NCBI GenBank assembly: GCA_003222895.1
Contig: QHXI01000075.1
Coordinates: forward strand, 1 to 34,843
DNA length: 34,843 nt
Origin: Acidobacteriota bacterium
GTDB taxonomy: Bacteria > Acidobacteriota > Blastocatellia > Pyrinomonadales > Pyrinomonadaceae
Direction: 5' to 3'
Shown: positions 632 to 31,354 of the stretch, piece by piece
Numbering within the stretch: the stretch's first letter is position 1
Layout of the letters: every line of letters begins with the position of its first letter
Notes under the pieces: generated by a model
Seen by the model: the letters and a program-made list of their open reading frames with translations, nothing else
Told to the model about the DNA's origin: nothing
Database searches by the model: none
Program-made: the position numbers and the translations under genes

Positions 632-1516
632 ATGTCAAGAACAATAACCAGCGAGTCCGTCAAGACGTCGAGCGCTGCGAGGATCGCAGTGCTAATTCCC
701 TGCCACAACGAAGAGTTGACCGTCGCTCAAGTCGTCAATGCATTCGGGAATGAGCTGCCGCAGGCGCGCATCTATGTCTTCGATAACAATTCTACTGACG
801 GCACCGCGGAACGCGCGCTGGCCGCCGGCGCGACGCTCATGTCTGAGCCACGACAAGGCAAGGGTTTTGTGGTGCAATCGATGTTTCGTCGCGTTGACGC
901 CGATGTCTATGTGATGGTCGACGGCGATGGAACTTATCCGGGTTGGGCGAATCGTCTGGTGTTGGCTGTGCTGAACTCGATGTTTCGCGCGAAGCTGACT
1001 GATATTCTTTCCGGCTATCGCGCCTTCAATCGCAAGTTCGTGAAGACGTTGCCGGTCTTTGGCGGCGGATTCGAAATCGAAACTGAGCTGACCATCAAGG
1101 CGGTCGCGCGCGGCTATCGGATTGTCGAAATTCCGACGGCATTGACTTCGCGGCCCGCGGGGAGCCATTCAAAAATAAAATTCTTTCGCGACGGATTTCT
1201 GATTCTGAATACAATCCTCGCATTGTTCCGCGACTACAAACCGCTGACGTTCTTCGGCACCACCGGCGCCGTCCTGCTGTTGCTTTCCCTTATCCCCGGA
1301 GTTGCCGTCGCGCTTGAGTTTGTTAAGCCACACGCGCTTGTGCGGCCGCTTCTGGCCATCTTTGCCGTCGGCATTTTTCTGTGCGGCTTGTTGTCGATTT
1401 CAGTCGGGCTGGTGCTGCATTCGATCGCGCGGCGTTCTCAGGAGTTTGATTATCAGATTCAGGTTTTGAGCGACGAACTGCGGGCGCGAAACTTCTCTGC
1501 CGATCATCATGAGTAG
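632..1516 (+). CDS. Family 2 glycosyltransferase with C-terminal membrane pair, internal deletion suspected
   Basis: This 294-residue protein has the GT2 GT-A fold signature: IAVLIPCHNEE near residue 18, DNNSTDGT near 51 and the metal-binding DGD in MVDGDGTYP near 93. Further on are SGYRAF, FEIETELT and the polyprenyl-phosphate-sugar-synthase-like RPAGSHSK. Two C-terminal hydrophobic segments (about residues 205-225 and 235-260) should anchor it in the inner membrane. It probably transfers a sugar from a nucleotide donor to a polyprenyl or glycan acceptor. In relatives I remember, about 35-40 residues including an M-V-V-G-x-R stretch lie between the TYP after DGD and the FGNRLV segment. Here TYP is followed directly by GWANRLV, so a conserved block appears missing in frame. 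Activity is therefore uncertain. Its last 8 bases overlap the next gene's start, suggesting translational coupling. Confidence 0.85.
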   Translation: MSRTITSESVKTSSAARIAVLIPCHNEELTVAQVVNAFGNELPQARIYVFDNNSTDGTAERALAAGATLMSEPRQGKGFVVQSMFRRVDADVYVMVDGDGTYPGWANRLVLAVLNSMFRAKLTDILSGYRAFNRKFVKTLPVFGGGFEIETELTIKAVARGYRIVEIPTALTSRPAGSHSKIKFFRDGFLILNTILALFRDYKPLTFFGTTGAVLLLLSLIPGVAVALEFVKPHALVRPLLAIFAVGIFLCGLLSISVGLVLHSIARRSQEFDYQIQVLSDELRARNFSADHHE

Positions 1517-3758
1517 CATTCGCGCATTTCCCAACCTCAACCTGAAGAGTTTTCGCGAGCGTTTCGATCTCGCGTCACTCATCTTCGCGCCATACGTGCT
1601 CACGATCGTCTGGCAGTACTTCGCCGTTATTCCCAACAAGGCCGTGGCATGGATCATCGCGGTGGTTGTGTCCGCAGTTCTTTGGTACGCATTCGTTGCT
1701 TTAAAAGAGACGCCAAAAGAAACGACCTCGTGGCAGTTTTGGTTGGTCGTGGCCTTACCGCTGCTGCTGATTTACTTACTTCGGGTCGCGTTTCCCGACG
1801 TGTCATTCGACGTGCTGAACTATCACGTCTTTCACAGCGAACGCGCCCTGCATGGCTGGCTCTTCATTCCGGGAGATTTTTTTCCGACGGCCGCGCCGTT
1901 CAATCCGACGCCGGACATTCTCACCGGACTCTATCGCCACGCGCTCGGGTACCGGCTCGGCACCATCGTTAATTTCGTGGCGCTAATTTGGACCGGAATC
2001 ATTCTTAATCGTCTGCTCCGCGATTACATCAAAAGTGTTTGGCTGCGAAACGTGAGCATCCTATTCATTCTTTGCACTGAGCAGCTCATGTTTCAAATCA
2101 ACAACTACATGGTTGATTTGCTGGCGTTGCCGCTGCTGCTCGAAGCCACCATCATCGCGATCGATGCAAAGACAAATCGAGTTATCCAACGCGCGACCTG
2201 GCTCGCGCTGTTGCTTGGCGTCGCGACCGCGTTCAAGCTGGCAAATCTTTTCATCGCGCTTCCCGTCGTTTTGGCTTACCTGATTAATTTGTTCGTCACC
2301 GCCGATCCGGGCAACCGCATAAAAAAGCTCGTGCGCCTTTTGAAGAGCACGCCCACCGCAGCAGTCGCGTTCTTACTTTCAATCGCGCCATTCACGATTT
2401 TTATTTTTCGTGAGACAGGAAATCCGATCTTTCCGCTTTACAACAGTCTGTTCAAATCGGCGTTCTGGCCGCAGGGCGCCGTGTTTGATCCGCGCTGGGG
2501 TCCATGGGGAGTCGCCGAAACGCTCGGGTGGCCCTTCGTGATGTTTTTTCGTCCGTGGCGGCTCAATGAATTCACGTTTTATTCAGGAAGACTAACCGTC
2601 GGTTACGTGCTCGCATTCCTGTGCCTCTTCATCGCTCGCGCTGATCGACGTGTTCGCGCGATCGCCTTTATCACCCTGCTGGGAACGATTCTGTGGAGCG
2701 CTACCAGCGGCTACATTCGCTATGCTTTGTACTTTGAGCTGACCAGCGGCTTTCTACTCATCTGGCTCGCGTACTTCATCTGGATAAAAACTGCGCGCTT
2801 TCCCAACTGGGCCAGGTATGCCGCGCAAGCACCGCTTTGGTTACTGCTGATCGGGCAGAGTTATGTCGCGCTCCGTTACGTAAAGCGTTGGGAATGGAGC
2901 ACGCGGCAAACAGCTCTCAATCAATCCCGACAGTTTTTTCGCGAATCGAAGAACCTGCTTCGCGATCGCTCACTCGCGAACTATCTCACGCCGGAAGACA
3001 AAGCGCCTTTCGATGATGTCGACGTCTGGTTCGAAACAACTTACAAGACGGCCGCGTTCGAGGCTCTGCTAAATCCGAAGACTCCGGTCATCGGAGTTCG
3101 CATGCCGAATTATTTCGACACGAATCTGGCGCGCCAGAAATTCGCCGAAGTGCTCCAGTCCGTTCGGGGCAGGCGAATGTTTACGCTGACTGATCGTGAA
3201 AGTTATGAAGACGCACGCGCTTTATTGGCCGCACGGGGACTGACGTTGGGAAAAGCGCGCGCTGTCTCGATTGATTATTTTTCCGAGTCAGTCAGATTCA
3301 ATATGCTTTTGGTAGAAGTCTTGCCAAGCTGGCAGAATACTGGTCAAGCTAATCGAGCGGAGAAAGGTCTGCCGCTACCGGACATGGCATTTAAGGCTCG
3401 GCTGTCAGTCTTGAATCCGCCGGCAGTGATGCGCGCCGGGGAACAGCAGACGATTCGCGTCCGGATGACGAATGAAAGTAACGTGAGCTGGCCCGGCCGC
3501 CAGCCAACGTGGCAATTTCAATTGACTGTCGGCGATCGCTGGCTTGATGAAAAAGGCGGCAAGGTGAATGACGTCGATGCGCGCGTTGCGCTCTTCGACG
3601 ATCTGCAACCGTCTGAATCCGTCGAATTGCCGTTGACGATCAATGCTCCGGATTCGCCGGGGACTTACATTCTTCAAATCGATGCGATTCAGGAAGGCGT
3701 CGCGTGGTTTGGCGATCGAGGTTCACAGATTTTGAGCCTAAAAATCAAAGTCGAATAG
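1509..3758 (+). CDS. Polytopic GT-C-like membrane protein with C-terminal Ig-like domain
   Basis: This 749-residue protein has many hydrophobic segments through about residue 460 (for example VAWIIAVVVSAVLWYAFVAL and PLLLIYLLRVAF). The early periplasmic loop contains FPDVSFDVLNYHVFHSERAL, resembling the acidic loop of GT-C membrane glycosyltransferases. A soluble region of about 150 residues follows. From about residue 628 to the end lies an Ig-like beta-sandwich with the pattern NPPAVMRAGE, VRMTNESNVSWP, DRWLDEKGG, LQPSESVELPL, APDSPGTYIL and IQEGVAWF. This tail recurs in four other proteins of the window. The ATG overlaps the end of the upstream GT2 gene by 8 bp, so the two are probably one operon. 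The likely role is assembly of a lipid-linked or surface glycan at the inner membrane. No donor or acceptor can be read from the sequence. Confidence 0.85.
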   Translation: MSSIRAFPNLNLKSFRERFDLASLIFAPYVLTIVWQYFAVIPNKAVAWIIAVVVSAVLWYAFVALKETPKETTSWQFWLVVALPLLLIYLLRVAFPDVSFDVLNYHVFHSERALHGWLFIPGDFFPTAAPFNPTPDILTGLYRHALGYRLGTIVNFVALIWTGIILNRLLRDYIKSVWLRNVSILFILCTEQLMFQINNYMVDLLALPLLLEATIIAIDAKTNRVIQRATWLALLLGVATAFKLANLFIALPVVLAYLINLFVTADPGNRIKKLVRLLKSTPTAAVAFLLSIAPFTIFIFRETGNPIFPLYNSLFKSAFWPQGAVFDPRWGPWGVAETLGWPFVMFFRPWRLNEFTFYSGRLTVGYVLAFLCLFIARADRRVRAIAFITLLGTILWSATSGYIRYALYFELTSGFLLIWLAYFIWIKTARFPNWARYAAQAPLWLLLIGQSYVALRYVKRWEWSTRQTALNQSRQFFRESKNLLRDRSLANYLTPEDKAPFDDVDVWFETTYKTAAFEALLNPKTPVIGVRMPNYFDTNLARQKFAEVLQSVRGRRMFTLTDRESYEDARALLAARGLTLGKARAVSIDYFSESVRFNMLLVEVLPSWQNTGQANRAEKGLPLPDMAFKARLSVLNPPAVMRAGEQQTIRVRMTNESNVSWPGRQPTWQFQLTVGDRWLDEKGGKVNDVDARVALFDDLQPSESVELPLTINAPDSPGTYILQIDAIQEGVAWFGDRGSQILSLKIKVE

Positions 3759-3786: not shown

Positions 3787-4338
3787 ATGACTACAAATCG
3801 AAACATCACGCTGTTAATGGCCGTGGTTATAGTTTCCTTCGCATTTGCGTGCAGTGGCAACAAGCCATCCACGACGCCCGGTCAGTCGGCGCAATCGCAG
3901 AAGACGCAAGCGCAGCCTAACGCACCGGCGGCTTTGCCGAACACGGCATTCAAAGCCGAGATTTCTTTGGTCAACCCGCCTGCGAAATTGCGCGCCGGCC
4001 AAAAAGAAACCGTGCGTGTCAAGATCAAGAACGCGAGCAATGAGATGTGGTGGGCACGAGGCGCACCGGTCAACACGCGGCCGGATAATAGGTTTTATAT
4101 CGCCACAGGCGATCGTTGGCTAAAAGCTGACGGCTCGCTTGTGACGGACATGGATGGACGTTACGGCCTCGGAAAAGATCTCAGACCCGGAGAAGAAACT
4201 GAAGTGCCGCTGGGAATCACTGCGCCGAAAGATCCGGGTGAATACACCCTCGAAGTCGATCTGGTGCAAGAGCAAGTCGCGTGGTTCCGCGAAAAAGGAT
4301 CGCCGACCGCGAAAGTGAAAGTTACGGTAACTAAATGA
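3787..4338 (+). CDS. Lipoprotein made mainly of the shared Ig-like domain
   Basis: This 183-residue protein has a signal peptide (MTTNRNITLLMAVVIVSF) ending in a lipobox-like AFAC at about residue 22, so it is probably lipidated and exported. A Ser/Thr/Gln-rich linker leads to an Ig-like domain from about residue 55 to the end: NPPAKLRAGQ, VRVKIKNASNEMWWARG, DRWLKADGS, LRPGEETEVPL, APKDPGEYTLEVDLVQ and QVAWF. The domain is closely similar to the tail of the membrane protein encoded just upstream, with box-by-box correspondence. The gene starts 28 bp after that protein's stop and is preceded by a purine-rich GAGGAGACG about 7-8 bases before the ATG, so it likely belongs to the same transcription unit. 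It may be a stand-alone envelope version of the module; glycan binding is inference. Confidence 0.85.
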   Translation: MTTNRNITLLMAVVIVSFAFACSGNKPSTTPGQSAQSQKTQAQPNAPAALPNTAFKAEISLVNPPAKLRAGQKETVRVKIKNASNEMWWARGAPVNTRPDNRFYIATGDRWLKADGSLVTDMDGRYGLGKDLRPGEETEVPLGITAPKDPGEYTLEVDLVQEQVAWFREKGSPTAKVKVTVTK

Positions 4339-4345
4339 GTTCGCA

Positions 4346-4440
4346 GTGAGCGGTGAGCGGTGAGCAGTAAAAACAAGAAAGGCGACCCGATCACCGCAAT
4401 CCGCGGTTTTTCTGCTCACCGCTCACTGCTCGCTGCTCAC
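4346..4440. repeat. Imperfect inverted repeat of GTGAGCGGTGAGCAG units
   Basis: The gap between the lipoprotein and the GT fusion gene consists of repeated GTGAGCGGTGAGC units on the left and their reverse complement (CTGCTCACCGCTCAC) on the right. They are separated by about 45 bases. The arms could form a long stem ending near the next start codon. It may act as a transcriptional attenuator or simply be a dispersed chromosomal repeat. There is no clean U-tract to call it a rho-independent terminator. Confidence 0.6.
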
Positions 4441-4448
4441 TTTTGTTT

Positions 4449-7400
4449 ATGAAGCTCGCTTATTTCAGTCCGCTCAACCCGCAAGCGTGCGGCATCTCTG
4501 ATTACAGCGAAGAACTGCTGCCTTATCTCGCCACGCACGCCGAGATCGATCTGTTCGTCGATGGATTCGAACCAGGCAATCCCGATCTGCCGGTCGCAGA
4601 TTGCTTTGATTACAAAAAACATCCTTCGGCGCTCGGTCAGCTTGCGAATTACGATGCGATTTTTTATCACGTCGGTAACGACTATCGCTTTCACTACGGC
4701 ACCTGTACGGTGCTGCGCCGGCATCCGGGAATTGTCGTCTTCCACGATTTTGTTTTAGAGGACACATTCCTCGGGCGCGCGCGTGAAATTAACGAGTTCG
4801 AACTTTATCTCGACGAGATGGAGGCCTGTCACGGGCCGTCAGAAAGAGCGCGAGCCGAAGAATTTATTCGTCGTGGACAAGCCCCGCCGCAGGAAGACAC
4901 GCCGCTTCAGTTTCCGCTGAACTTGCGCACCGCTCGATCGGCGGAAGGAATCATCGCGCACTCAGAATGGAGTCGATCGCGGCTGGCAGAGCTCGCGCCG
5001 GGCACGCCGACTGCGCGCATCGCCATGCCGGTAAGAGTTCTGAATCCTGCCTTGCGACGCGCGTGGATGAAACGAAATCCTTTGCGCCAATTCATTTCGA
5101 TCGCAAGCTTCGGCTTGATCACGCCAGACAAAGGCATCGACGCAACTCTGCAAGCCCTCGCTTTGTTGAAAGACGAATTCGATTTTCATTACACGCTGGT
5201 TGGCGCTGAAAATAATTTCTATGACGTGCGCGAATCGATCATTCGTCACGGCATGAGCGAGCACGTCACGATCACCGGCTATGTTTCGCTCGAAGAGTTC
5301 GAGCGCCACATCGCAGAGACTGATATTGCAATCAATCTGCGCGATCACACGGTTGGTGAAACGTCCGCCAGTCTTTGCCGGCTAATGGGCATTGGAATTC
5401 CCGCGATCGTTTCGGACATCGGATGGTTCGCTGAAATTCCCGATGGCTCTGTGGTGAAGATTTTTCCCGCCGACAATTTTGCAGCTCTTCAAGCCAGGCT
5501 GAAGACGCTCATCGCAAATGCGAAGCTTAGAAGGAGCATCGGCGATCGCGCGCGCGATTTTGTGCTCACGGAACACAATGCGTGGCGAACCGCTGAAGCG
5601 TATATCGGGTTTGCGCGCGAAGTGATCGAACAGCGGCCCGCGCAATCCCGCCGAAGTCTTTCCGGCGCCACCTCAGGAACAAACGTTCAGGAAATACCAG
5701 GTGCGACGCATCAAGAAGATCCAACTTCGATCGCGAGTACCGATGAAAGCAGCCGGGTCCGTTCGCGGCGTTTGAGGATCGCGTACTTCAGCCCTCTAAA
5801 TCCGCAACCGAGCGGCATCTCTGATTACAGTGAAGAGTTGCTGATGCATCTGCGCCGGCTTCTCGACATCGATCTCTTCGTCGACGGCTTTGAACCAACG
5901 AATGCCGAGATAACGGCGAACTTTGCGGTGGTCGATTATCAGAAAGATCCTGCAGCGCTCGATAAGCTCAAAGACTATGATGCGGTGCTATATCACCTTG
6001 GCAACGATTATCGTTACCACGGCGGAATTTTTTGGGCGATGCAGAAACATCCCGGCATTGTCGTGCTTCATGATTTCGCGCTGCAGGATTTCTTTCTCGG
6101 CATAGCGCGGCAACAAGGCCGAATGAGCATCTATTTTGACGAGTTGGAAGCGTGTCATGGCAAGCGCGAACGCCAGTTCGCCGAAGAGCAAATGAGTCGC
6201 GGCGCCGTGCCGCCGCATGAAGGCGCGCCACTCGATTTTCCTTTGAACGCGAGCATCGCTCGATCATCTGAAGGCATCGTCGTGCATTCAGAATGGGCGC
6301 GCGAACGAATTGCGGCCGTGTCCGCGGGTGTGCCCGCGACTTCGATCAAACATCACATCACCGAACGCGCGGCTGAGACTCCTATGCCTGAGCGCGCACA
6401 AAACGGAAAGGTCACGATCGCATCGTTCGGCGGCATCACGCGCGATAAAGCCATCCATCGCGCGCTGTCTGCGCTGTCTGCGCTGCGCGAGGAGTTTAAT
6501 TTTGAATACGTGCTGGTTGGTTCGTCCGCGAATTTTCCGGATTTGCCGGACGTGATTCGTCAATACGAACTGGAAGATCGCGTGACGTTAACCAACTACG
6601 TAGGCCTCGAAGAATTTCAGCAGCGCATTCTCGCCGCGGACATCGCAATCAACTTGCGCGAACGGCCTGTCGGCGCAACGTCTGGCAGCTTGTGTCGGTT
6701 GATGGCTGCGGGCGTGCCGACGATTGTTTCCAACGTCGGTGCGTTTTCCGAGCTTCCCGACAATGCGGTCGTGAAAATCGACCACGACCAAAACGGTGAT
6801 GCTTTGTTGCAGGCTTATCTCCGCAAACTGATCGACGATCCATCTTTGCGCGCCCGCATCGGCCGCAACGCCCGCGAATACGTTCTCGCCGAACACAAGA
6901 TCGAAATGAGCGCCGCGAAGTACGCCGCGTTCATTCGCGAAGTCATCGCGCGCCGGCCGCGCACGAACTTCGTCAAGAGCATCGGCAACGAAATCTCGGC
7001 GCTCGGTATTAGACCAATCGACGAAATAGTTATGCGGAACGTTGCGTCAGAAATTGCGGCGCTCGCTCCGACTGCTGAATTCACCAAGACACGCTTCGCT
7101 TTTCCTGGGAGGACCCCCCAGCCAGCTCGTAAGACTGAAGCGGTCGCTCGCAGTAATGGCCGCGCTGATTTATGTACGCCGCCTGAGCCTGTCAAAGAAG
7201 CAGCAGCCGGCCGCATGCGAAAGATCGAAGGCGTCGATTACAAACGCGGCGCCGTCGAATACGCGCGCGCGCTCAGTCCCGAACTTAATTACTATCTGCG
7301 CACCAAGCCGTTCACGAATCTTCACAAGCCGATTAAGTTTTCCGGCGACGGCATGGACATCGAAACCGCGCGCCACTTTTATGACTTCGCGAACATCGCT

Positions 7401-8438
7401 GTCGCGCTCGCGCTGCGCGCCGATGCGAAGATTCTCGATGTCGGTTGCGGACCTGGATGGGTCAGCGAATATTTCGCGCGCATCGGGTACGACATGACCG
7501 GAATCGACATCAGCGACGATCTGATTCAAGTCGCCCGCGAGCGGCTCGCCGCGCTGCCTTATCAAGTCGATCAAGAGACGCCGGTGCGCTGCCGCTTTCT
7601 GGTCCACGACATCGAAGCTAAGGCGCTTAACGAGAAGTTCGACGCGATCATTTGTTACGACGCCCTGCATCATTTCGAAGACGAAAAGAGCGTGTTTCGC
7701 AATCTCGCAGCGATACTGGAAATCGGTGGCCTGCTGTTTATTGTCGAAGGCCAGAAGCCGGAAACTGACTCGGCCTTAGAGATCGAGCTGCGCGGATTCA
7801 TGGAGAAATATCAGACGCTCGAATCGCCTTTCAGCGAAGATTATCTATGCGGGTTGGTTGACGAAAACGGATTCAAGATCGTCGCCGATTACGTCAGCGT
7901 CAATGGCCTTTTCGAACAGCAGATGTTGCACGGTGGAAAAGATAGTCGAGCGTTGCCGCTGCGAACTCTCGACACTGGCTATCATTATTTGACCTGCATG
8001 AAGGTCGCCGATGGCGTGCCCGGGTCGAGTGTTCCAGACAGCCGCAAACCTAATGTTCTTCACGCGAAGATCATGCTGCGGCGTTCTCTGCCTGAAACTG
8101 TTGCGGCGGGCGAAGAACTAATTTTGCCAATTACGCTTATCAATATTGGCGACACAGTTTGGCTGACTGGTCAGACAGTACGTGAGGGACTGGTTATGCC
8201 GGGTGTGAGAATCATCGATTTCGATGGTCAGGTCGCGGTTGAATCGCACGGGCCGCTGCTGCCGCGCAGCGTTGCGCCCGGTCGCAGCCTAACCATCGAT
8301 GTGCACCTCAACGCTCCAAAGAAAGCGGGAGCCTATTCAATGAAAATCGATCTCGTCGATCAGAATATTTGTTGGTTTGAAGAAAGCGGATCGGAACCTG
8401 TCGTGGTTGACTTGATCGTGTCAGAAACCCGGCCGTGA
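4449..8438 (+). CDS. Fused GT-B glycosyltransferase x2, SAM methyltransferase and Ig-like domain
   Basis: This 1329-residue multidomain protein starts at the ATG at 4449; an in-frame TTG at 4443 is less likely. Residues about 1-395 form a GT4-like glycosyltransferase (YFSPLNPQACGISDYSEELL, later HSEWSR, SIASFGLITPDKGID, ETSASLCRLMGIGIP). Residues about 442-835 repeat the same architecture almost motif for motif (YFSPLNPQPSGISDYSEELL, HSEWAR, SFGGITRDKAI, SGSLCRLMAAGVPT), a clear internal duplication. A linker leads to a class I SAM methyltransferase with ILDVGCGPG at about 995 and CYDALHHF further on. The last roughly 125 residues are the Ig-like module (LPRSVAPGRSL, APKKAGAYSMKIDLVDQ, ICWF). 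The protein probably adds two sugars and a methyl group to one glycan, on the cytoplasmic face. No membrane segment is visible. The order of action and the substrate are inference. Confidence 0.88.
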   Translation: MKLAYFSPLNPQACGISDYSEELLPYLATHAEIDLFVDGFEPGNPDLPVADCFDYKKHPSALGQLANYDAIFYHVGNDYRFHYGTCTVLRRHPGIVVFHDFVLEDTFLGRAREINEFELYLDEMEACHGPSERARAEEFIRRGQAPPQEDTPLQFPLNLRTARSAEGIIAHSEWSRSRLAELAPGTPTARIAMPVRVLNPALRRAWMKRNPLRQFISIASFGLITPDKGIDATLQALALLKDEFDFHYTLVGAENNFYDVRESIIRHGMSEHVTITGYVSLEEFERHIAETDIAINLRDHTVGETSASLCRLMGIGIPAIVSDIGWFAEIPDGSVVKIFPADNFAALQARLKTLIANAKLRRSIGDRARDFVLTEHNAWRTAEAYIGFAREVIEQRPAQSRRSLSGATSGTNVQEIPGATHQEDPTSIASTDESSRVRSRRLRIAYFSPLNPQPSGISDYSEELLMHLRRLLDIDLFVDGFEPTNAEITANFAVVDYQKDPAALDKLKDYDAVLYHLGNDYRYHGGIFWAMQKHPGIVVLHDFALQDFFLGIARQQGRMSIYFDELEACHGKRERQFAEEQMSRGAVPPHEGAPLDFPLNASIARSSEGIVVHSEWARERIAAVSAGVPATSIKHHITERAAETPMPERAQNGKVTIASFGGITRDKAIHRALSALSALREEFNFEYVLVGSSANFPDLPDVIRQYELEDRVTLTNYVGLEEFQQRILAADIAINLRERPVGATSGSLCRLMAAGVPTIVSNVGAFSELPDNAVVKIDHDQNGDALLQAYLRKLIDDPSLRARIGRNAREYVLAEHKIEMSAAKYAAFIREVIARRPRTNFVKSIGNEISALGIRPIDEIVMRNVASEIAALAPTAEFTKTRFAFPGRTPQPARKTEAVARSNGRADLCTPPEPVKEAAAGRMRKIEGVDYKRGAVEYARALSPELNYYLRTKPFTNLHKPIKFSGDGMDIETARHFYDFANIAVALALRADAKILDVGCGPGWVSEYFARIGYDMTGIDISDDLIQVARERLAALPYQVDQETPVRCRFLVHDIEAKALNEKFDAIICYDALHHFEDEKSVFRNLAAILEIGGLLFIVEGQKPETDSALEIELRGFMEKYQTLESPFSEDYLCGLVDENGFKIVADYVSVNGLFEQQMLHGGKDSRALPLRTLDTGYHYLTCMKVADGVPGSSVPDSRKPNVLHAKIMLRRSLPETVAAGEELILPITLINIGDTVWLTGQTVREGLVMPGVRIIDFDGQVAVESHGPLLPRSVAPGRSLTIDVHLNAPKKAGAYSMKIDLVDQNICWFEESGSEPVVVDLIVSETRP

Positions 8439-8543
8439 GAGAGGGCTAAGTTTCAGACGAGGACCTTCAGATGTCATCACTTTCATGCTTTTCAAGTCAC
8501 GCTTTCGCTACTCGCCCTCCCTTATGGTCGGGCTTCTGACACT

Positions 8544-9668
8544 ATGACTCGCGACGAAATAATCTCAGACGTGAAGCGCCTCGAGCCGTGGTTTCATTGC
8601 ATCGATCTCGGCGATGGCCTCTTCACAAAAACCAGGAGCACGATCGGCGAGCCCGTCGAGCATCCGCGACCAACTTGGGACGTTGTCAAAGCTGCTCTGC
8701 CGAACGATCTCTCAGGCAAAACGGTTTTGGATGTCGGCTGCAACGCTGGCTTCTATTCGATTAAGGCGAAAGAACGCGGTGCCGCGCGCGTGCTCGGTAT
8801 TGACGCGCAACGCGAACTGATTCGTCAGGCGGCTTTCGTTCGCAACGTGAAAGGATTAGAGATTGATTATCAGCGGATGTCGGTTTACGATCTCGATCCG
8901 CACGAACTCGGTCAATTCGATGTCACGATGGCGCTCGGCCTAATCTATCACTGCAAGCATTTGGTGCTTGCGCTCGAAAAACTTTTTCTGGTGACGCGCG
9001 AACTGTTGATTCTGGAAACTGCGATCTACCCGCCTGAGAAAGCACCCGAATCTTTCGTCTATGCAGAAGGCGGCACACTGCCGACGCTGCATCCGATCGC
9101 CTACGTCGAAAATCTTCCTGACGCGAAGGAAGCCGTCTTCAACTGGTTTCTGCCGGGTATCGCCGCGCTAACTGCTTTGTTGAAGAATGTCGGCTTTGAT
9201 GAAGTTAGAGTCCTACCGGGCGTGCAGAACGATCGGGCCGTCTTCGCCTGTCACAAACGGGTAGCCTTTCCTGATAGCCGAAGCGTGAGTTACCTCGGAT
9301 CGAAGTTGTCGTTGGTAAGTGGTCCAACGCATTGCCGGCCGGGTGAAGTGATGAGGTTTCAGGTGCGCGCTGAAAACACGGGTTACGCTCGTTGGTTACG
9401 CGGGAGCGAGCAAGGCACGGAACGCGGCGACGTTCATTTGGTCGCGCATCTGCTCGGTGAAGATGAAGAGCCGCTCTCGCTTTACCATGCGGGCGCATTT
9501 CTTCCGCGCGACATCGCGCCGGGCGAAACAATCGAAATTGAAATCAGTCTCCGCGCACCCGATCCGCCGGGAAATTATCAGCTCGCGTTCGACATGGTCT
9601 CAGAGCACCTGGCGTGGTTTGAAGATTTGGGAGCGGTGATTGCCAAGCAGCAACTGGTTGTTGAGTAA
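8544..9668 (+). CDS. CmoB/DUF1698-like SAM methyltransferase with C-terminal Ig-like domain
   Basis: This 374-residue protein has an N-terminal methyltransferase of about 245 residues: WFHCIDLGDGL, then the SAM motif I VLDVGCNAGFYSIKA at about residue 60, GIDAQRELI, and the family-typical ALGLIYHCKHLVLALEKL. These features match the CmoB/DUF1698 superfamily. True CmoB modifies tRNA wobble uridine, but the glycan context argues for small-molecule or glycan methylation. Residues about 250-374 are the Ig-like module: PTHCRPGEVMRFQVRAENTG, LPRDIAPGETIEIEI, APDPPGNYQLAFDMV and HLAWF. It lies 105 bp after the GT-GT-MT fusion in the same direction. Tail sharing suggests both methyltransferases act on, or dock to, the same partner. 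Substrate is unknown. Confidence 0.85.
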   Translation: MTRDEIISDVKRLEPWFHCIDLGDGLFTKTRSTIGEPVEHPRPTWDVVKAALPNDLSGKTVLDVGCNAGFYSIKAKERGAARVLGIDAQRELIRQAAFVRNVKGLEIDYQRMSVYDLDPHELGQFDVTMALGLIYHCKHLVLALEKLFLVTRELLILETAIYPPEKAPESFVYAEGGTLPTLHPIAYVENLPDAKEAVFNWFLPGIAALTALLKNVGFDEVRVLPGVQNDRAVFACHKRVAFPDSRSVSYLGSKLSLVSGPTHCRPGEVMRFQVRAENTGYARWLRGSEQGTERGDVHLVAHLLGEDEEPLSLYHAGAFLPRDIAPGETIEIEISLRAPDPPGNYQLAFDMVSEHLAWFEDLGAVIAKQQLVVE

Positions 9669-9700
9669 TTAAGGCGCGCTTCCTTGCGTATCGGCCGATC

Positions 9701-9857
9701 GTCCCGAAGGGACGAAATATTTATAGACTTCACGACTCCAGTAGATCTCGAAGCTCCATAGGAGCGTAATATTTCAACACACAGGAACATTTCCGCTCCT
9801 ACGGAGCTGAAACGCCTTCTTGCCCGAGCAGCAATAACATTTGGCCGCTCTGCGGCC
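9701..9857. repeat. Cluster of four short GC hairpins with AT-rich tails
   Basis: The 295 bp between the methyltransferase and aspartokinase contain no gene. Four hairpins with three-base loops are visible: GTCCC-GAA-GGGAC at 9701 followed by GAAATATTTATAG, GCTCC-ATA-GGAGC at 9753 followed by GTAATATTTC, GCTCC-TAC-GGAGC at 9795 in reverse orientation (preceded by GGAACATTTCC), and GGCCGC-TCT-GCGGCC at 9843 preceded by AACATTT. Stem bases change in a compensated way while the tail is kept, as in REP-type elements. The same unit recurs at 15012-15145. They may also act as terminators or mRNA-stability elements ahead of the lysine operon. Confidence 0.65.
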
Positions 9858-9963
9858 AGGAACCAGCGACATACATTTACCCACTACCTTTCATCTTGAG
9901 CCCGTTGGAAAATATTCTGACAAGTCGTATGCTTTGCGACTGGCTCTCGCTTTGGCTTTATTG

Positions 9964-12368: not shown

Positions 12369-12420
12369 CCTCTGTCGAGCAAGTCTTGCTTTGGGGTCGA
12401 TAGAGTCTTACTATCAAAAC

Positions 12421-12645
12421 ATGGTGACTATAACGTTTCCGGATCGCGAAACTGAGAAGCGCGCGCTAGCGTTTCTCCTGGGGCGGTTCTCTGGCCGCGT
12501 CTTGAGATCTGGTGAACACCTTGTCCCTGAAGCCGCACTGGAAGCACTCGCTGATCAGAACATCCCATTCTCTGTAATTGGAAGGACCACTTATGAGCAA
12601 CAAGTGGCGGCGATTCGAGGTCCTGCTCCCACTTCAGTTCAATGA
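12421..12645 (+). CDS. Small hypothetical protein, first of an overlapping pair
   Basis: This 74-residue product starts at the ATG at 12421 (VTITFPDRETEKRALAFLLGRF, then RSGEHLVPEAALEALADQNIPFSV and TYEQQ). It has no signal peptide or membrane segment. The layout, a short acidic-basic protein whose 3' end overlaps the next small gene by 53 bp, resembles an antitoxin followed by its toxin. I recall similar pairs in other genomes but cannot assign a family. It sits 52 bp after the dapE-like gene and may ride on the lysine operon message. Function is unknown; the antitoxin role is inference. Confidence 0.6.
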   Translation: MVTITFPDRETEKRALAFLLGRFSGRVLRSGEHLVPEAALEALADQNIPFSVIGRTTYEQQVAAIRGPAPTSVQ

Positions 12646-12913
12646 TGGAAGTGACTTGCCGGGCCAGCTGCTTGCTGAAGCTGTCCTGGAAATCGTAGAT
12701 CATTTTGGGGCGGTCAGTTACGAGACGCAGAGAGTCGAAGGACATTGGCGTCACGGTGGTGTAATTATCCGCGACAATCTAGCGAAACTGGTCATAGACG
12801 TGCCGGACATTCTCAGCAATCGGCGTTGGATGAAAGAATATAAAGAGCGCTGGCGGGTACGCCTTGAGCAGGTTGATCTGTGGATGGTAAGTCACATCGT
12901 CGAGATTGAATAG
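12593..12913 (+). CDS. Small hypothetical protein, second of an overlapping pair
   Basis: This 106-residue protein starts at the ATG at 12593, chosen because GGAAGGA precedes it by about 7 bases; an in-frame TTG at 12578 is weaker. It begins MSNKWRRFEVLLPLQFNDG, contains EAVLEIVDHFGAVSYETQ and EGHWRHGG, and ends with a charged helix (RRWMKEYKERWRVRLEQVDLW). No signal or membrane segment is seen. It overlaps the preceding 74-residue gene by 53 bp in another frame and ends 12 bp before dapB. The pairing suggests co-expression, possibly a toxin-antitoxin-like module, but no nuclease or kinase motif is recognisable. Confidence 0.65.
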   Translation: MSNKWRRFEVLLPLQFNDGSDLPGQLLAEAVLEIVDHFGAVSYETQRVEGHWRHGGVIIRDNLAKLVIDVPDILSNRRWMKEYKERWRVRLEQVDLWMVSHIVEIE

Positions 12914-12925
12914 CCTCTTGAATCA

Positions 12926-14985: not shown

Positions 14986-15011
14986 ATCGACAAGACACGC
15001 GTGAGCGATTA

Positions 15012-16972: not shown

Positions 16973-16978
16973 TCTGCT

Positions 16979-18127: not shown

Positions 18128-18129
18128 TC

Positions 18130-24767: not shown

Positions 24768-26696
24768 TCAGTCGAACCAGCGCTTGTAGACTCTCACGGG
24801 CATCCGCACAGTTTTTGATCCGCGCAGGCCGAACCACGAAACGCCTTCCTGCAACATGTCAATTTCCAGAATGTACTCGCCCGGCTCCTTCGGGGCGTTG
24901 ACCATCAACTGAAATTCCGCTTCCTCTCCTGGTTTCAGATCGCGCATCAACGGCGCACGTCCATCATCATTCGCAACGGCATCGCCGTTTCGATCCAACC
25001 AGTGGTTTCCGAGATTCACCTGAAACTGATCGCCTGCCCGTTCACGCGCCAGCCAGGTGACGTTGCCGATATTGCGCACCAGAGCGCGGACGGTTGCCGG
25101 CTGCCTCATGTGCAATTGTGCGGGATAATCAATCGGCCGAAGCTCAGCGCGTAAAGCTTCAAACGGCAGCGGCGAAAGTTTACGCGGTAGTCCTTGCGCA
25201 ATGTAAAGGGTGTAGGGATCTCTTCGCAAAAGGATCTGACAACGTGGGCAGGTGCTCTCGGTCGTGATTACAACTCCGCCGTCAGGGGCGGGAACATCGG
25301 GCGGCAACATCACAAACTTGTTTGCCGGAAGATGACTCAGTGTTGCATACCAAAGCACTTGAATGTAGCCGGGAATCGGCGACGTATGCGCAATGTAAAC
25401 CGGCCGCGAGTCTGACGCGCTCACCGCCAAAGGTAATATCGTCGAGAAGTAATCAGCGTCGAAGAGATAAATTCGTTGGGTAGTCTCCGCTGTCTTGCGA
25501 TGAACCCATTGAAAGTAAAATCCTTGCGCAAGGATCAGCACGATCGCGGTGACGGCAAACGCTTGCCGTCCGCGAGACTTTTTCTCGAACAACCAGTGCC
25601 ACGCAGGCAGGGTAAGGATGATTAAGAACATCGGCACCGCAGCCAATCGCAGAGTATGAAGATAATCTTTCGTGAACGACGAGGGCACAAACGAAACGGC
25701 CAAGCCATAAACCACGAATCGCCACCAGGGATCGACGTGTTTTCGCTTGATGAAAAGAAACAGACTCGCCAGGGCGAGCGCGAACGTCGCCAATAGCAGT
25801 TGACCCAGGCCATAGATCGCGGCGATCTGAAAGTAATCGGGATCGCCGTGGACGATCATTCGCCACATGTTGAGATTGCCGGCATAGTGCTTGACGAATT
25901 CCCAAACGATCTCAAGATAACCCGTTTGCGGCGTGATGTAAGTGATCACATCGAACCTGGCTCGCAGCGCGCCGGGATGTCTGAAGTGAAAAATTACAAT
26001 CGGAATTATCGAGACGGCGTACAGAACCCAGACGCGCAGAATCGATGGCAGTCGCCTCGGCGCGCGAAAAAACAGCAGGCCCAACGCGAGCATCGGCGCC
26101 AACAGACGCCCGATTGAGTACGTGTAAGTCAGCAGCGCCAGCGTCGCCGCCAATATCAACGCGTCAATCCAATTCCACGTTGCTTTGTTCACTAACCGGT
26201 AAACGCACCACAGAAACAATGCCAGCAGCAGCGGATAGAGGGCGACTTCGACGACGACGCGGCTCAACTCAAACAACCACGGCATCAACAGCGTCATAAC
26301 CATGACGATGATCGCGACTGAGCGCTGTTTTGTGATTCGGAATGCGAGGATTCCGATTAGCAGCGCCGCGATCAGCCCAGCCGTTGCACTGAATATTCGC
26401 GCAACAGAAATGCTCGGACCTGTGAAGCGATACAGCGCCGCCAAGAGATAGATATAGACAGGATTTTTGTACTCGCCGAACGCGCGGAAGTAGAGCGGCC
26501 ACGCCACGCCAATCTCGTCATGTCCGCTGTGAGCAATTAAGTATGCGTTGTACCCGACGGATGATTCGTCGATGAAAGAGCCAGCCGGAATTGTTCCCGC
26601 ATCATGAAGATAAATCACTGCTCCAATGACGAACACGAACAGGAACGCGAGAGTTGTTGAGTGACGATGAAGAAAAGCTTGAGAGGGCTTTGGCAT
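24768..26696 (-). CDS. GT39/ArnT-type membrane glycosyltransferase with C-terminal Ig-like domain
   Basis: This 642-residue polytopic protein starts with a membrane segment (STTLAFLFVFVIGAVIYLHDAG), followed by the acidic periplasmic loop SFIDESSVGYNAYLIAHSG and FGEYKNPVYIYLLAALYRFTG, the hallmark region of PMT/ArnT glycosyltransferases. About ten further hydrophobic segments run to residue ~400. Residues about 535-642 form the Ig-like module (MRQPATVRALVRNIGNVTWL, GNHWLDRNGD, LKPGEEAEFQL, APKEPGEYILEIDMLQ, GVSWF). It probably transfers sugars from a polyprenyl-phosphate donor on the outer face of the inner membrane. It lies 8 bp downstream of another PMT-type gene, likely one operon, and converges with the hybrid kinase with a 3-bp gap. 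Confidence 0.88.
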   Translation of the reverse strand: MPKPSQAFLHRHSTTLAFLFVFVIGAVIYLHDAGTIPAGSFIDESSVGYNAYLIAHSGHDEIGVAWPLYFRAFGEYKNPVYIYLLAALYRFTGPSISVARIFSATAGLIAALLIGILAFRITKQRSVAIIVMVMTLLMPWLFELSRVVVEVALYPLLLALFLWCVYRLVNKATWNWIDALILAATLALLTYTYSIGRLLAPMLALGLLFFRAPRRLPSILRVWVLYAVSIIPIVIFHFRHPGALRARFDVITYITPQTGYLEIVWEFVKHYAGNLNMWRMIVHGDPDYFQIAAIYGLGQLLLATFALALASLFLFIKRKHVDPWWRFVVYGLAVSFVPSSFTKDYLHTLRLAAVPMFLIILTLPAWHWLFEKKSRGRQAFAVTAIVLILAQGFYFQWVHRKTAETTQRIYLFDADYFSTILPLAVSASDSRPVYIAHTSPIPGYIQVLWYATLSHLPANKFVMLPPDVPAPDGGVVITTESTCPRCQILLRRDPYTLYIAQGLPRKLSPLPFEALRAELRPIDYPAQLHMRQPATVRALVRNIGNVTWLARERAGDQFQVNLGNHWLDRNGDAVANDDGRAPLMRDLKPGEEAEFQLMVNAPKEPGEYILEIDMLQEGVSWFGLRGSKTVRMPVRVYKRWFD

Positions 26697-26704: not shown

Positions 26705-28450
26705 TTAATGTTCGTCCTCTCGAAACAGATAGACGGATCCACCGAAGACAGCTTCTGGGGTCCGATGTCGATACGCATCAAAGAAGTTCTGGCGCTCAGT
26801 CTCGCTGGCCCAATGCCCTTTAACTCTCAACAACTCGGGCACCGTCGAGCCGTTGAGAAAGCTCGCGCCGATGGCGATGTAGCGCGACTTCTCGATTTCC
26901 ACATCGTCATATCGCGTCACGGTAATCGGATTGACTCCGTAATGATGAAGCATGATGAAGTCGCCTAAGAAGCTCGAGCGCACCTTCGTTTCGCCGCGGG
27001 CGCGCAAGTATGCCGCCACTGCTGCCGTATCGTCGCCCCATTCGACGTTCGAATCGGACAAATACCACCAGTGCGGATGCGCCGAAGCCAGCTCGTTCAT
27101 ATAGCTCACGTGATCGGGATAAGCACGCACAGCTTCGACAATCATCCAAGACATCAAAACGACGACAGCGAAGATTCCCGCGCGGAGAACTTTTCGCGAC
27201 TTGCACAAACGAGCGAGCAGCGCGCCACCGAGCATAAACAGAAACGGGTACGCGGGGAGATAGTAGCGCACGCCGATGTCTATGCGGCTGCCGAGCACGT
27301 ACAGCGTATAAATAAGAAACGGCACGAGCATCCAAAGGAAGCTTGGATCTCGTTTCTTGATCCATTCGTAAGTGGCCCAAGCGAGCGACGCCAGTGACAG
27401 AAAGAGAAACGGCAGCGTAGTTTTCAGTGCAAACGCGACGGGAAAGTAATACCACCAACCCATGCGACCATACATGCCTAAGAATCCCGCTGGATGCCCT
27501 TCCGCGTTGTGACGCACCTGTCTAAGAATTCCGAGGATGAAATCAGCCGGCAAGACATGCGAGAGCAAACTGGTGAGCAGAGTAACTTTTCCCGCGACGC
27601 GCGGAAACGATTCCTGAATCCACTGCGCGTCAGGTGCGCCAATCGGCCGGTGCTGAAACAGGTAGCCGGCGTTGATGATTACGACTATGGCGATCGCGAC
27701 GATGACCGCGTGCGCGATCGGGTCTCTCCTCTTATTTTTCCTGGTGCGCCAGATGATGACACCAAAGAAAACTGCCAGGATTGGTCCAGCTAAGAGCATC
27801 GAAAACTTTGCCAGCAGCGCGAATCCCGCGGCCAGGCCAATCCAGGTCGCGTGCTTCAACGATTGCTGGTTCGCATATTGATAAAGGCTTATAAAGAGGA
27901 CGAGGTAACCCAGCGTCGCCGGGATATCTGTTTGGACAACGCGCCCATGCGCCAGAATAGTTGGCTCGAGCACAAACAAAGCAATTGCCAACACGGCCGC
28001 AAAAGAGCCAAATAGCTCGCGCGCGAAACGAAAAATGACCAGGCCGAGAACAACGCTCAACAGGATCATCGGTATGCGCGGCCAGAACGAAAGCGATGCG
28101 AAGCTGTCCGGATTGTTCTCCCAAAAACTTTCCGCGTACGACCACTTCTCGGGAATCGATCCCGGATCGCCGTGAATCTGTTCGGGCTTAACTTCGTTTG
28201 GTTGAATGAAGAGCAGCGGAATGCCCGCGGCGATTTTTGCGAGCGGCGGATGTTCGTTCACAAGTTGGAAGTTCCCGGTGGCCAGATGATAGTATGCCGA
28301 CGGAATCATCACGACCTCGTCCACTGTAATGCTCTTGCGCGAAATCACCGCAAACATCTGGAGTGACATCGCTGCCAGCAACGCTGCGCAGAGCAACTCA
28401 GCAACGTGCGCGGTCGCCCGTGCGCGCAACTTAGCGAACGCGCGCGACAT
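26705..28450 (-). CDS. PMT/ArnT-type membrane glycosyltransferase
   Basis: This polytopic protein has about 581 residues from the ATG at 28450 (MSRAFAKLRAR). An upstream ATG at 28507 would add 19 residues but overlaps the divergent gene. After the first membrane helix comes the acidic loop SITVDEVVMIPSAYYHLATGNFQLVNEHPPLAKIAAGIPLLF, with the DE and HPP pattern of GT39 dolichol- or polyprenyl-phosphate-mannose-type transferases. Later features are ILAHGRVVQTDIPATL and SRIDIGVRYYLPAYPFLFML. A C-terminal soluble part (SDSNVEWGDDTAAVAAYL) follows. It lacks the Ig-like tail of its operon partner at 24768. It probably glycosylates an exported substrate; donor and acceptor are unknown. Confidence 0.87.
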   Translation of the reverse strand: MSRAFAKLRARATAHVAELLCAALLAAMSLQMFAVISRKSITVDEVVMIPSAYYHLATGNFQLVNEHPPLAKIAAGIPLLFIQPNEVKPEQIHGDPGSIPEKWSYAESFWENNPDSFASLSFWPRIPMILLSVVLGLVIFRFARELFGSFAAVLAIALFVLEPTILAHGRVVQTDIPATLGYLVLFISLYQYANQQSLKHATWIGLAAGFALLAKFSMLLAGPILAVFFGVIIWRTRKNKRRDPIAHAVIVAIAIVVIINAGYLFQHRPIGAPDAQWIQESFPRVAGKVTLLTSLLSHVLPADFILGILRQVRHNAEGHPAGFLGMYGRMGWWYYFPVAFALKTTLPFLFLSLASLAWATYEWIKKRDPSFLWMLVPFLIYTLYVLGSRIDIGVRYYLPAYPFLFMLGGALLARLCKSRKVLRAGIFAVVVLMSWMIVEAVRAYPDHVSYMNELASAHPHWWYLSDSNVEWGDDTAAVAAYLRARGETKVRSSFLGDFIMLHHYGVNPITVTRYDDVEIEKSRYIAIGASFLNGSTVPELLRVKGHWASETERQNFFDAYRHRTPEAVFGGSVYLFREDEH

Positions 28451-28494
28451 ATCTATCTCGATGATTGCATCATCGGCTGCCGCCCTCTGATTCA

Positions 28495-31354
28495 ATGGCT
28501 GGTCCATCCAATCCCCGTCAGAAGATCAAAGCTGATTATGTCGCCGGTCTGGTCGTCGCGCTCGCGCCGCTAGTCTATTTCTTCCCGGCGTTGCGCGAGG
28601 GAAGAATACTTTCGCCCGATGACGGCGTAATTTTCAATGTGCCGTTGCGCGTGGCCGCGTCAAACATAATGCGATCGGGCTATTTGCCGCTTTGGGATCC
28701 ATACATCTTCTGCGGCATCCCGCTTCACGGCGCCGCGCAAGCTGGGCTGCTCTTTCCGCTCAACTGGTTCTACTTAATCGCTTCCCCGCCCATCGCTACG
28801 AATCTAATGATGCTGTCGACTTATGCGGTTGCCGGTCGAGCAGATTGGCCACACAAACATTCTGCATACTGCCGCGGTCATGCCGTGGATGCTTTGGGCT
28901 GTCGATGGTTACCTCCGAAACGGTGCGCGCCGCCGCGGCGTCCTGTTAGTCGTACTGATTGCATTACAAGTCTTCGCAGGTCATCAACAAACTCTAGTGT
29001 ACTCGCTAGTGCTCGCCGGCGCGTACGCGTTTGTGATGTCGCGCTCGCTGCACAAAACGCGACCGACGTATTTCGCTTGGGCGGCTTTCATTGTTTCAGG
29101 ATTGGCGCTGGCGGCGGTGCAAATCTTACCGACGTTCGAGTTGCTGCGCAACAGTCTTCGCGCGACGGCGACTTACGAGTTCTTCGGATCTTTTTCGCTG
29201 CCGCCGCGATTTCTACAGACGTTCTTCGCCCCTTACGTTTTGGGCGGAGGCAACGGCCTGATGTTTCGCGCGCCGTACATCGAACGACCATTCTTTGGCG
29301 AGTACGCCGCGTATGCCGGCATTCTCACGCTGATGCTGGCCGCGTTCGTGATGATTTCAAAGCGCGACACCCGCACAAAGTTTTGGGCGGCGGTATTTGT
29401 CGTTGCGCTATTTCTGGCCCTCGGCCGCTTCATGCCGCTTGGTCTCTACCAGATTTTCTATCAAGTGCCCTTGCTCAATTTATTTCGCAGCCCCGCCCGG
29501 CACATGTTGGAAGTTCAATTCGCGCTTGCGGTTTTGGCAGGCCGAGGAATCACTGCAATTCGATCAGCTGAGCGAAGCAGATCGATCACGGCGATGCTAA
29601 TCGGAATCGTGGTCTTTGTGATCACATGCATGGCGGTGACATGGTTTCGTCCGGCTGCTTTTCATCTCAGCCGGGACGTTCCCATCAACGTCCTGCGAGC
29701 GCCTGAATTGTTTCTACCCGTCTTCATTTCCCTGCTGAGCGCGATCGCATTCTCGATGTTCGTGCGCTCAAAGAATCGTCGCGCACTAATATTCGTGTTC
29801 GCCGTGCTGATTTTTGATTTGTTCATTTACGGCAGCGGCAGCGCGTGGCGAACGCACAGTCCGGAGCGCAATTCCGAGCTTTGGCGCGAGCCCGAGGCGG
29901 TTACTTTTCTGCGCGAACATCAGGCACAGGATGCGAGTACACGATTTAGAATTCTCACACAGGATCAAGTGTTCGATCCCAGTCTTCCGATTTCCATCGT
30001 GACACCTGAAGGATTTGATTTCTCTTTGCAGCCTGACATTTACATGATGCACGGGATCGAGAATGCCGCTGGCTACGATGGTTTCGGTCTGTCGCGCTAC
30101 AGCCGTTTGGCCGGCGACATGAAAGTTTGGGGCGAGTTGACTGAGCCTGAACGAACGCTGCGTGGCGACAGTCGCGAACTCGATCTGCTGAATGTGCGTT
30201 ACCTGCTAACACGGCCGATTGCCGTGTCGGCCCCAAAGACTTTTCCTTCAGCGCCTGCGCGTTACGGTAATCAACAGTTTGCGGACACTGATTTGGGTTT
30301 ATCGCCAATCCCGTCGGGCCAGCGCCTGTCGTTCAATGTGCCACCGACTGAAGTGGATCGCATCGCCCTGTTAACCAGTCTTAACTGGTCCGATGTCGTC
30401 CCCGATCACATCGCGGTTGCAGCGATCACTCTGCGCAGCCAGGACGGAAAGACCTTTGATTTTGAGTTACGCGCCGGAGATCACACTTCGGAGTGGTCAT
30501 ACGATCGCCCGGACATGCGCGCGCGCATCAAGCACAAACGCGCGCCCGTTGCGACGAGTTATTCCGTCGATGACGCCAACGGAAAATTCGCAGGACACAC
30601 TTACATCAGTTCGTTCGCACTGCCGGCGAAGACGGTGATTACGTCTGGGTCAATCACGGTCGCGACAGTGAAAGATGCTGCGCAATTAAGTTTGACGGTG
30701 GGGCGCATCTCGTTGGCGAACGGCGCACAAGCGTTTCCGCTGCGCAGCGAATGGATAACGAAGGATTCTTCGTCGCAAGCAATCCCAGCACCGTCAGTTA
30801 CGGTTTCAAGCGATCAGCGATGGAAGAAAGCGGCCGACTTCAAGGACGTGTCCATCTTTGAAAACGCGCGCATGCTGCCGCGTGCCTGGCTGGCGAACGA
30901 AGCTCGCGTGTTGCCTGAGGCTGAGATGCTGCAAGTGATTCGCACCGGCAAATTCACTGACGGTAAAGTTTGGGATCCGCGACAAGTCGCGCTCGTCGAA
31001 GGCAAGATCGATTTCAATTCGAGCTCGCGCGACGCGAACGCAAGCGCAATCCTGATTACGCACGAACCAAATCGCGTGATCGTCGGAGCGAAATCGACGG
31101 AACCGGCAATCCTGGTTTTGAGCGAGAATCACTATCCCGGCTGGCGTGCTTATGTCGACGGAAATCTGGTTGATACTCTCAGGATTGATTACAACCTGCG
31201 CGGCGTTACTATCCCCGCCGGCGAGCACAGGATCGAGTTTGTCTATCGTCCGAAATCCGTGCTAATCGGTTTGGTCATTTCGCTACTAACATTGATCGGG
31301 CTCGCCGTCTGGTGGAATCTTGGTACAGAACCGTTTGCGATAGAAGGCGGGTAG
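28495..31354 (+). pseudogene. YfhO-type membrane protein, interrupted by deletion and frameshift
   Basis: The N-terminus is read from the ATG at 28495 (VVALAPLVYFFPALREGRILSPDDGV, YLPLWDPYIFCGIPLHGAAQ, LLFPLNWFY) and is good YfhO-family sequence up to STYAVAG near 28835. The frame then turns into unrelated residues. The family-like continuation (VEQIGHTNILHTAAVMPWMLW onward) is in another frame, whose open stretch covers 28823-31354. Comparing with the usual YfhO layout, about 30 residues (a short loop and one membrane helix) are missing at the join, so this is an internal deletion of a length not divisible by three. The remainder is intact to the end, including FRSPARHMLEVQFALAVLAG and the closing SENHYPGWRAYVDGN block and last helix. 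Without the lesion it would be a polytopic membrane protein linked to lipoteichoic-acid-like or glycolipid glycosylation. The lesion could be real or an assembly error. Confidence 0.8.

Follow-up and report, generated by a model that had tools for sequence, protein, structure and literature searches.

WsaE of Geobacillus stearothermophilus is described, in the text available from PMC2943079, as one soluble chain carrying a methyltransferase (MT) and two glycosyltransferase (GT) domains that form different linkages; it methylates a sugar of the product, and its gene adjoins wzm and wzt. The accessible part of PMC11231755 describes WbdA/WbdD, WbbB (O12) and Klebsiella O7 ORF6, in which several GT modules and a terminating enzyme are distributed over one or two chains. 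The terminating enzyme is a methyltransferase in WbdD and O7 ORF6.

We analyzed a window of 34,843 nucleotides, which is one whole contig of a draft genome of 167 contigs and encodes a protein of comparable domain content. Compared by description rather than by sequence, this protein resembles WsaE in combining an MT and two GTs per chain, but the MT is N-terminal in WsaE and follows the GTs here, and the Ig-like tail of the window protein is not mentioned in the part of PMC2943079 available. The systems of PMC11231755, likewise compared by their partial description, use an extended coiled-coil ruler, which was not seen in the model of the window protein, and the modules of O7 ORF6 are GT2 whereas those of the window protein are GT4. 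The initial annotation had raised the possibility that one chain both adds successive sugars and caps them. WsaE and WbdA/WbdD, as described in these sources, are precedents for such a module; for the window protein itself, activity, sugars and a capping role are predictions. Among the open-licence papers listed in literature searches, none had a title or abstract opening concerning this kind of locus.

Architecture of the 4449–8438 protein

The open reading frame at 4449..8438 (+ strand, 1329 aa) encodes two GT4 modules, a SAM methyltransferase and an Ig/FW-like tail. The frame is bounded by 4443/4449–8438 with two possible starts, of which we prefer the ATG at 4449 because the homologue in genome G006 opens with an ATG at the aligned residue. 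The first module (GTa, 4449..5645, +) and the second (GTb, 5763..6989, +) are connected by a linker of 39 aa (5646..5762, +), similar in length to that of the G006 homologue (locus L054). A Pfam scan of the product revealed two GT4 stretches (PF00534, 97.7 bits), and both halves exceeded the Glycos_transf_1 cut-off of 26.4 bits (GTb 59.9, GTa 47.5). The motifs GISDYSEELL, HSEW and SLCRLM occur exactly twice each, and the halves are 50% identical over about 400 aa (E 2e-137), which is far beyond chance. The model of GTb resembles the solved structures of BshA (Z 30.5), the methylmannose polysaccharide mannosyltransferase (Z 30.3) and PimA (Z 28.6); this comparison covers GTb, and a like fold of GTa is inferred from its identity to GTb.

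The segment ahead of the methyltransferase (6990..7244, +) is modelled as helices of 34 and 17 residues followed by about 47 residues with pLDDT below 50; no extended coiled coil was seen there by inspection of the model. The class I SAM methyltransferase domain (7245..8000, +) contains the glycine-rich loop LDVGCGPGW and the motif GIDIS and matches PF13489 (Methyltransf_23, 78.6 bits, cut-off 27) and Methyltransf_11 (70.2 bits, cut-off 21.2). The C-terminal tail (8046..8435, +) gave a sub-threshold match to N_BRCA1_IG in the scan of the whole product (20.2 bits, cut-off 28), and the tail alone reached 25.7 bits against PF16158, below the gathering score of 28. By iterated profile the same domain was detected in four other window proteins. 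The GT-GT-methyltransferase-Ig order within one chain, the motif-for-motif repeat of the transferases and the shared Ig-like tail had all been proposed in the initial annotation, and each is borne out by these results.

Distribution and origin of the doubled transferase

Of the 119 genomes surveyed, which belong to one family (inferred to be Pyrinomonadaceae), 29 gave a GT match. Twenty of these GT-positive genomes encode one GT with a methyltransferase and two encode two GTs; the sequences from G480 and G031 remained fragmentary or had broken frames. Two long GT matches within one frame were present in none of the 86 loci L073–L133 and L136–L160 (GT profile, frames of at least 250 aa). The doubled GT is rare and the usual form in the family is GT4-methyltransferase-Ig. 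Single-GT proteins predominate (20 versus 2), so the family can do without a second GT. The GT, MT and Ig parts of these single-GT proteins are 43–68% identical to the window protein and several of the loci share its neighbor genes, but they carry one GT where the window protein has two. They retain the MT, and also the tail in cases with a traceable frame. In several relatives the genes follow one another in the order membrane protein-Ig, lipobox protein-Ig, GT-MT-Ig, MT-Ig. Most likely the window protein is a lineage-specific doubled-GT variation on a known style of glycan-building enzyme.

The fusion might have been an artificial join made in assembly. This was rejected, as GTa, linker and GTb lie in one frame also in G006, the genome of another species of the same genus, where the GT-GT order is conserved at 79–80% identity to the window. 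The alternative objection, that homologues would all be single-domain, is nearly true, yet the fusion recurs in this second genome. The two two-GT genomes and the 20 with one GT and a methyltransferase of the same kind offer a natural comparison, in which an extra sugar, if any, should show in the glycan.

In the best GT trees GTa and GTb are not sisters but each stands beside different single-GT relatives: GTa groups with the GTs of L059, L062 and L063, GTb with those of L060, L028 (G005) and L055. The tree with the halves apart is better by a log-likelihood of 31.4, although the AU test does not reject a constraint to one clade (p 0.065). The tree used for this test was built without L072 and the outgroups; a separate GT tree took in six outgroups. 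Because the halves are non-sister in the best trees while sisterhood is not rejected, fusion of two diverged alleles is no less likely than duplication in place. Of the internal duplication proposed initially the repeat itself stands, and an origin in place is uncertain. That the two GTs have diverged is confirmed; they are 50% identical and resemble different single-GT subtypes. The further suggestion that they may have different acceptors has indirect support from the nearest relatives of each half and from the purifying selection on both (below).

Without G006, the MT-Ig part of the window protein joins L057 in the MT tree (support 96/89). With G006 included, window and G006 pair firmly, but no neighbor of the pair is resolved. 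The next-gene tree, computed after removal of the partial L055 row, places window and G006 with G005 (90/92). The G006 gene lies across two contigs with 106 identical overlapping bases, and its second contig shows a frame change at the end of GTb, ahead of the methyltransferase.

Proposed function of the two halves

On balance we lean towards a glycan-assembly enzyme that is conserved in the family and has its GT doubled here, and which would perform two non-equivalent transfers and an O-methylation in one chain. GTa and GTb would both be active transferases, probably with a different glycosidic linkage formed by each on a shared acceptor, which is probably lipid-linked and cytosolic. The fused methyltransferase would O-methylate a sugar of the product. 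The Ig tail, which recurs on further proteins of the locus, would probably serve to hold either the glycan or partner enzymes. Against this reading stand the missing GETS Glu of GTb, the divergence of both halves, the prevalence of single-GT proteins and the frame change in G006.

It is possible, if rather unlikely, that only one half is catalytic and that the other, more likely GTb, acts as an acceptor-binding or dimer-mimicking pseudo-GT. GTb has Ala743 (GATS) at the position of the GETS Glu, which is present in GTa, in 17 of 20 single-GT relatives and in 6 of 6 outgroups. The remaining three relatives (L055, L060 and L028 of G005), however, whose chains contain a single GT, also have Ala at this position, suggesting that GATS marks a subtype rather than a dead domain. 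A loss of donor-binding residues from one half, named initially as a possible refutation, is partly borne out by Ala743, with these three relatives as a counterweight. Both halves also depart from the family pattern further than most single GTs do. Of 132 near-invariant columns, 16 differ in GTa and 14 in GTb, compared with 1–5 in 15 of 20 single GTs and 8–16 in the other five by a leave-one-out count, so that both halves must be regarded as diverged (L072 was left out of the residue comparisons). The HD and K positions, which are family-wide, are kept by GTa and GTb. EX7E is the canonical donor motif of GT4 enzymes. The whole family departs from it with GETSxSLxR, having Arg where BshA has the second Glu (LLEAM), and this departure therefore does not separate the two halves from their relatives. 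Between window and G006 dN/dS was 0.10 for GTa and, for GTb, 0.08 over the first 288 aa and 0.06 over the C part, hence no higher in GTb, compared with 0.05 for the MT, 0.08 for the Ig domain, 0.12 for the whole linker-MT-Ig stretch and 0.08 for the next gene; the values are approximate as dS exceeds 1. By this measure both halves are under purifying selection. Decay of one half was considered and is not supported by dN/dS.

We judge it improbable that the GT pair builds a polymer of repeat units which the MT caps, with Wzm/Wzt reading the cap and exporting the product. The domain content is indeed like that described for WsaE, and the genome encodes one Wzt_C protein, but on another contig (C28), and none of the window proteins scanned against Pfam gave a Wzt_C match. 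Inspection of the model showed no extended coiled coil to join GTb and MT, and one-GT relatives retain the MT and, as far as their frames are traceable, the tail; both points also argue against a polymerase with terminator. About equally improbable is a simple tandem duplication in which both copies catalyze the same transfer with the same specificity, for dosage or processivity: one clade for the halves is compatible with the AU test, but the best tree separates them and they differ at subtype-marking positions.

Neighboring genes and the Ig/FW-like tail

Upstream of the fusion, 632..1516 (+) encodes a GT2 (PF00535, 36.9 bits) that is weakly AglJ-like (169.6 bits, cut-off 325) and has two hydrophobic segments near its C-terminus. 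It is followed by a multi-TM membrane protein with Ig tail (1509..3758, +; Ig 3435–3731), which matched no other Pfam family and which we guess to be a GT-C enzyme, and by a small protein with a lipobox-like start consisting mostly of an Ig domain (3787..4338, +; Ig 3994–4308). Downstream, 8544..9668 (+) encodes another methyltransferase (TIGR04290, 146 bits, cut-off 300), which also carries an Ig tail (9339–9638). Further along lie a multi-TM protein with Ig tail (24768..26696, −; Ig 24807–25103) that is weakly PMT-like (24.0 bits, cut-off 26.1), a PMT-family membrane protein (26705..28507, −; PF13231, 54.1 bits) in which no Ig tail was found, and a YfhO-like membrane protein (28823..31354, +; PF09586, 53.3 bits).

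PF16158 is matched by 62 of 63 tails at E up to 0.1. The tail shares the Ig-like beta-sandwich of FW/N_BRCA1_IG domains (ILRUN Z 10.4, NBR1 Z 9.3) but stays below the PF16158 cut-off, and where the available text of PMC9582228 gives four conserved Trp for that domain, the 63 tails have one invariant Trp and no other at 90%. A similar fold is seen in the Wzt carbohydrate-binding domain with 3-O-methyl-mannose (Z 9.6). Its family PF14524 is not among the three that the tail matches at E up to 0.1, and the best solved chain for the sequence profile is NBR1 (E 0.042), with no Wzt. The top Foldseek rows are GH3 beta-glucosidase domains, and many other Ig-like folds score near Z 9. From the modelled fold the ligand of the tail cannot be read.

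The five strong tail copies of the genome all lie within the window, on the lipobox protein, two membrane proteins and two enzymes needing cytosolic substrates. A scaffold confined to one compartment is disfavored, given the tail on both the lipobox protein and the GT/MT enzymes; compartments were assigned by hydropathy scan and lipobox pattern alone, the latter flagging 14 of 20 short tail-bearing frames, while several of the six unflagged frames were masked or belonged to different genes. Speculatively, and with considerable doubt, the tail could be a pathway-wide glycan-reading module, with a fold like that of the Wzt cap-binding domain and common to proteins handling one O-methylated surface glycan (cytosolic GT-GT-MT and MT enzymes, membrane proteins and lipoprotein), so that the same sugar epitope would be recognized at successive steps, in both compartments. 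With the tail on enzymes of cytosolic substrates and on the lipobox protein of one locus, recognition of one product by several glycan proteins is testable by binding assay. Among 16 tail carriers picked by hand from other genomes of the phylum, 9 are methyltransferases.

Architecture and frequency of the doubled frame

The open reading frame at 4449-8438 (+) encodes a protein of 1329 aa in which two GT4 glycosyltransferase (GT) modules, GTa (4449-5645) and GTb (5763-6989), are followed by a class I SAM methyltransferase (MT) and an Ig-like tail, as described in the initial annotation. The three motifs reported there as repeated are each present twice in the chain, and the proposed divergence of the halves is apparent from their alignment (50% identity, E 2e-137). 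When the entire protein was searched against its own genome, the closest other match to the GT part had E 2.4e-6. The window is the entire contig C125 of a draft genome of 167 contigs.

An assembly join, raised earlier as a possible refutation, is ruled out by G006, another species of the same genus, which carries GTa and GTb in a single frame with 82% and 85% identity to the window's halves. The G006 gene is spread over two contigs with 106 identical bases common to both; the second contig holds the remainder of GTb, the MT and the tail. Where GTb ends on that contig the reading frame changes, which is either real or a draft error.

A GT match (E 1e-30) was found in 29 of 119 Pyrinomonadaceae genomes, counting the window's own. 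One GT followed by an MT in the same frame was detected in 20 of the 29 (G016 with a truncated MT), two GTs only in the window's genome (G000) and G006. The remaining seven contain a lone GT (G443), a distant lone GT (G034, G027, G479, G485) or fragments and broken frames (G480, G031). The Ig tail lies in frame with GT-MT in 18 of the 20 single-GT genomes; where no tail is visible the locus ends before it (G482) or the frame breaks (G016). Among 20 loci examined (L054-L072, L114) only L054, the G006 contig, is doubled, and a GT profile search of another 86 loci revealed no second case. Based on these counts, GT-MT-Ig is the usual form in the family and the doubling a local variant. The fusion is real and present in two genomes; the proposed refutation, that homologues are all single-domain, nearly holds by these counts (20 single-GT genomes, two doubled ones). 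In the same class, all four scanned GT-MT loci lacked a detected tail (L037, L038, L039, L041), and MT-Ig without GT occurs in G034 (L033). At L156 1063-2751 (G377) a GT of the fusion's family has an Ig-profile match behind it with no MT match in between.

Function and origin of the two transferase halves

In the comparison of the window with G006, GTa has a dN/dS of 0.10, and GTb, measured in two parts, has 0.08 and 0.06. The MT gives 0.05, the Ig tail 0.08, the linker-MT-Ig stretch taken together 0.12 and the following gene 0.08; these values are approximate as dS exceeds 1. By this measure neither half appears to be decaying. At 132 near-invariant columns GTa deviates 16 times and GTb 14 times, more often than 15 of 20 single GTs (1-5 columns); the other five deviate at 8-16. 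The GT part of a GTb-MT-Ig model (mean pLDDT 73.9, built with 17 sequences) matches the GT4 structures BshA (Z 30.5), methylmannose polysaccharide mannosyltransferase (Z 30.3) and PimA (Z 28.6).

The canonical GT4 motif is EX7E. It is absent family-wide from the fusion's GT family, which has Arg at the second Glu. In GTb, Ala743 replaces the Glu of the GETS motif, a residue present in 17 of the 20 relatives with a single GT and in all six outgroups. A donor-binding residue lost in one half had been named as evidence against the doubled enzyme, and the substitution itself is present; however, L055, L060 and L028 share this Ala without a second GT in the chain, and we therefore infer that GATS marks a subtype and not an inactivation.

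When outgroups are left out of the tree, GTa falls into a group with L059, L062 and L063 (92/87), and GTb joins L060 and L028 (97/96) and then L055 (95/92); with outgroups, the GTa group (95/91) and GTb with L060 (96/70) are recovered. The pattern is best explained by two diverged alleles having fused. The second GT may instead stem from tandem duplication with fast divergence afterwards, as the term "internally duplicated" implied: constraining the four GT rows together cost 31.4 log-likelihood units in the tree without outgroups and was not rejected (AU p 0.065).

Our best guess is that GTa and GTb would make two bonds, the MT would methylate, and the tail would hold the product or partners. 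WsaE offers a precedent that such a chain can work (PMC2943079). WbdA/WbdD, WbbB and O7 ORF6 of Klebsiella and E. coli split the same work otherwise and are marked by a coiled-coil ruler (PMC11231755). Since this ruler is not seen in the GTb-MT-Ig model and the genome's one Wzt_C match lies on another contig than the fusion gene, we do not class the protein as a polymerase-terminator enzyme.

The Ig-like tail

The tail family merits more attention than the GT doubling. With an iterated profile, 71 tails were detected across 21 records, namely the window and 20 loci, 70 of them at most 25 residues from the frame end and the last at 28. All five strong matches of the genome (E 6.6e-30 or better) lie inside the window on proteins of different kinds (coordinates are those of the Ig matches): a multi-TM protein (3435-3731), a small lipobox protein (3994-4308), the fusion (8106-8399), a second methyltransferase (9339-9638) and another multi-TM protein that is weakly PMT-like (24807-25103). 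An RHS-repeat protein carries a sixth, weak match (E 2.5e-10). Across the phylum, matches at E 1e-5 occur in 44 of 149 genomes. Sixteen proteins hand-picked from other genomes (E 2.1e-14 or better; L169-L180, L182-L184, one of L186) comprise nine SAM methyltransferases, three radical SAM proteins, one glycosidase and three without other Pfam match. Their Ig domain is not always C-terminal, lying inside the methyltransferase protein in L169 and L184 and towards the N-terminus in L174, L179 and L182. L170 483-2696 (G120) encodes a methyltransferase followed by three tandem Ig domains.

The tail model (pLDDT 91.7) is similar to the FW domain of ILRUN (Z 10.4), to the cap-binding domain of Wzt with 3-O-methyl-mannose (Z 9.6) and to NBR1 (Z 9.3), and numerous other Ig-like folds also score close to Z 9; the first Foldseek rows are GH3 beta-glucosidase domains. 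The tail falls below the PF16158 cut-off for the FW/N_BRCA1_IG domain and lacks the four-Trp signature described for FW domains (PMC9582228). The Wzt domain binds a methylated cap sugar (PMC9445017). As the tail is carried by a lipobox protein and by enzymes needing cytosolic donors, a ligand found on both membrane sides, for instance the glycan, is an attractive guess. The tail may instead serve protein-protein contacts, as FW domains do (PMC9582228).

Neighboring genes

Lysine/diaminopimelate genes (aspartokinase, M20 peptidase family, DapB, DapA, DapD-like, aminotransferase, semialdehyde dehydrogenase) occupy 9841-20504 and separate two parts of the glycan locus that lie near each other in G005. 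Among them, at 16079-18127, are an adenine DNA methyltransferase of the D12 class, which PADLOC labels as orphan or type II, and a protein of 382 aa that has no match in Pfam and only a weak, sub-threshold one to NucS in NCBIfam; the two are possibly a restriction-modification pair. An Mrr-type restriction endonuclease domain was detected at 33067-33978 (25.5 bits, cut-off 21). Large DUF4214 proteins adjoin the glycan locus at L165 of G005 (4237-7206, 7226-9760, 12774-15068), one with a Calx-beta domain, and are possible surface proteins and glycan targets.
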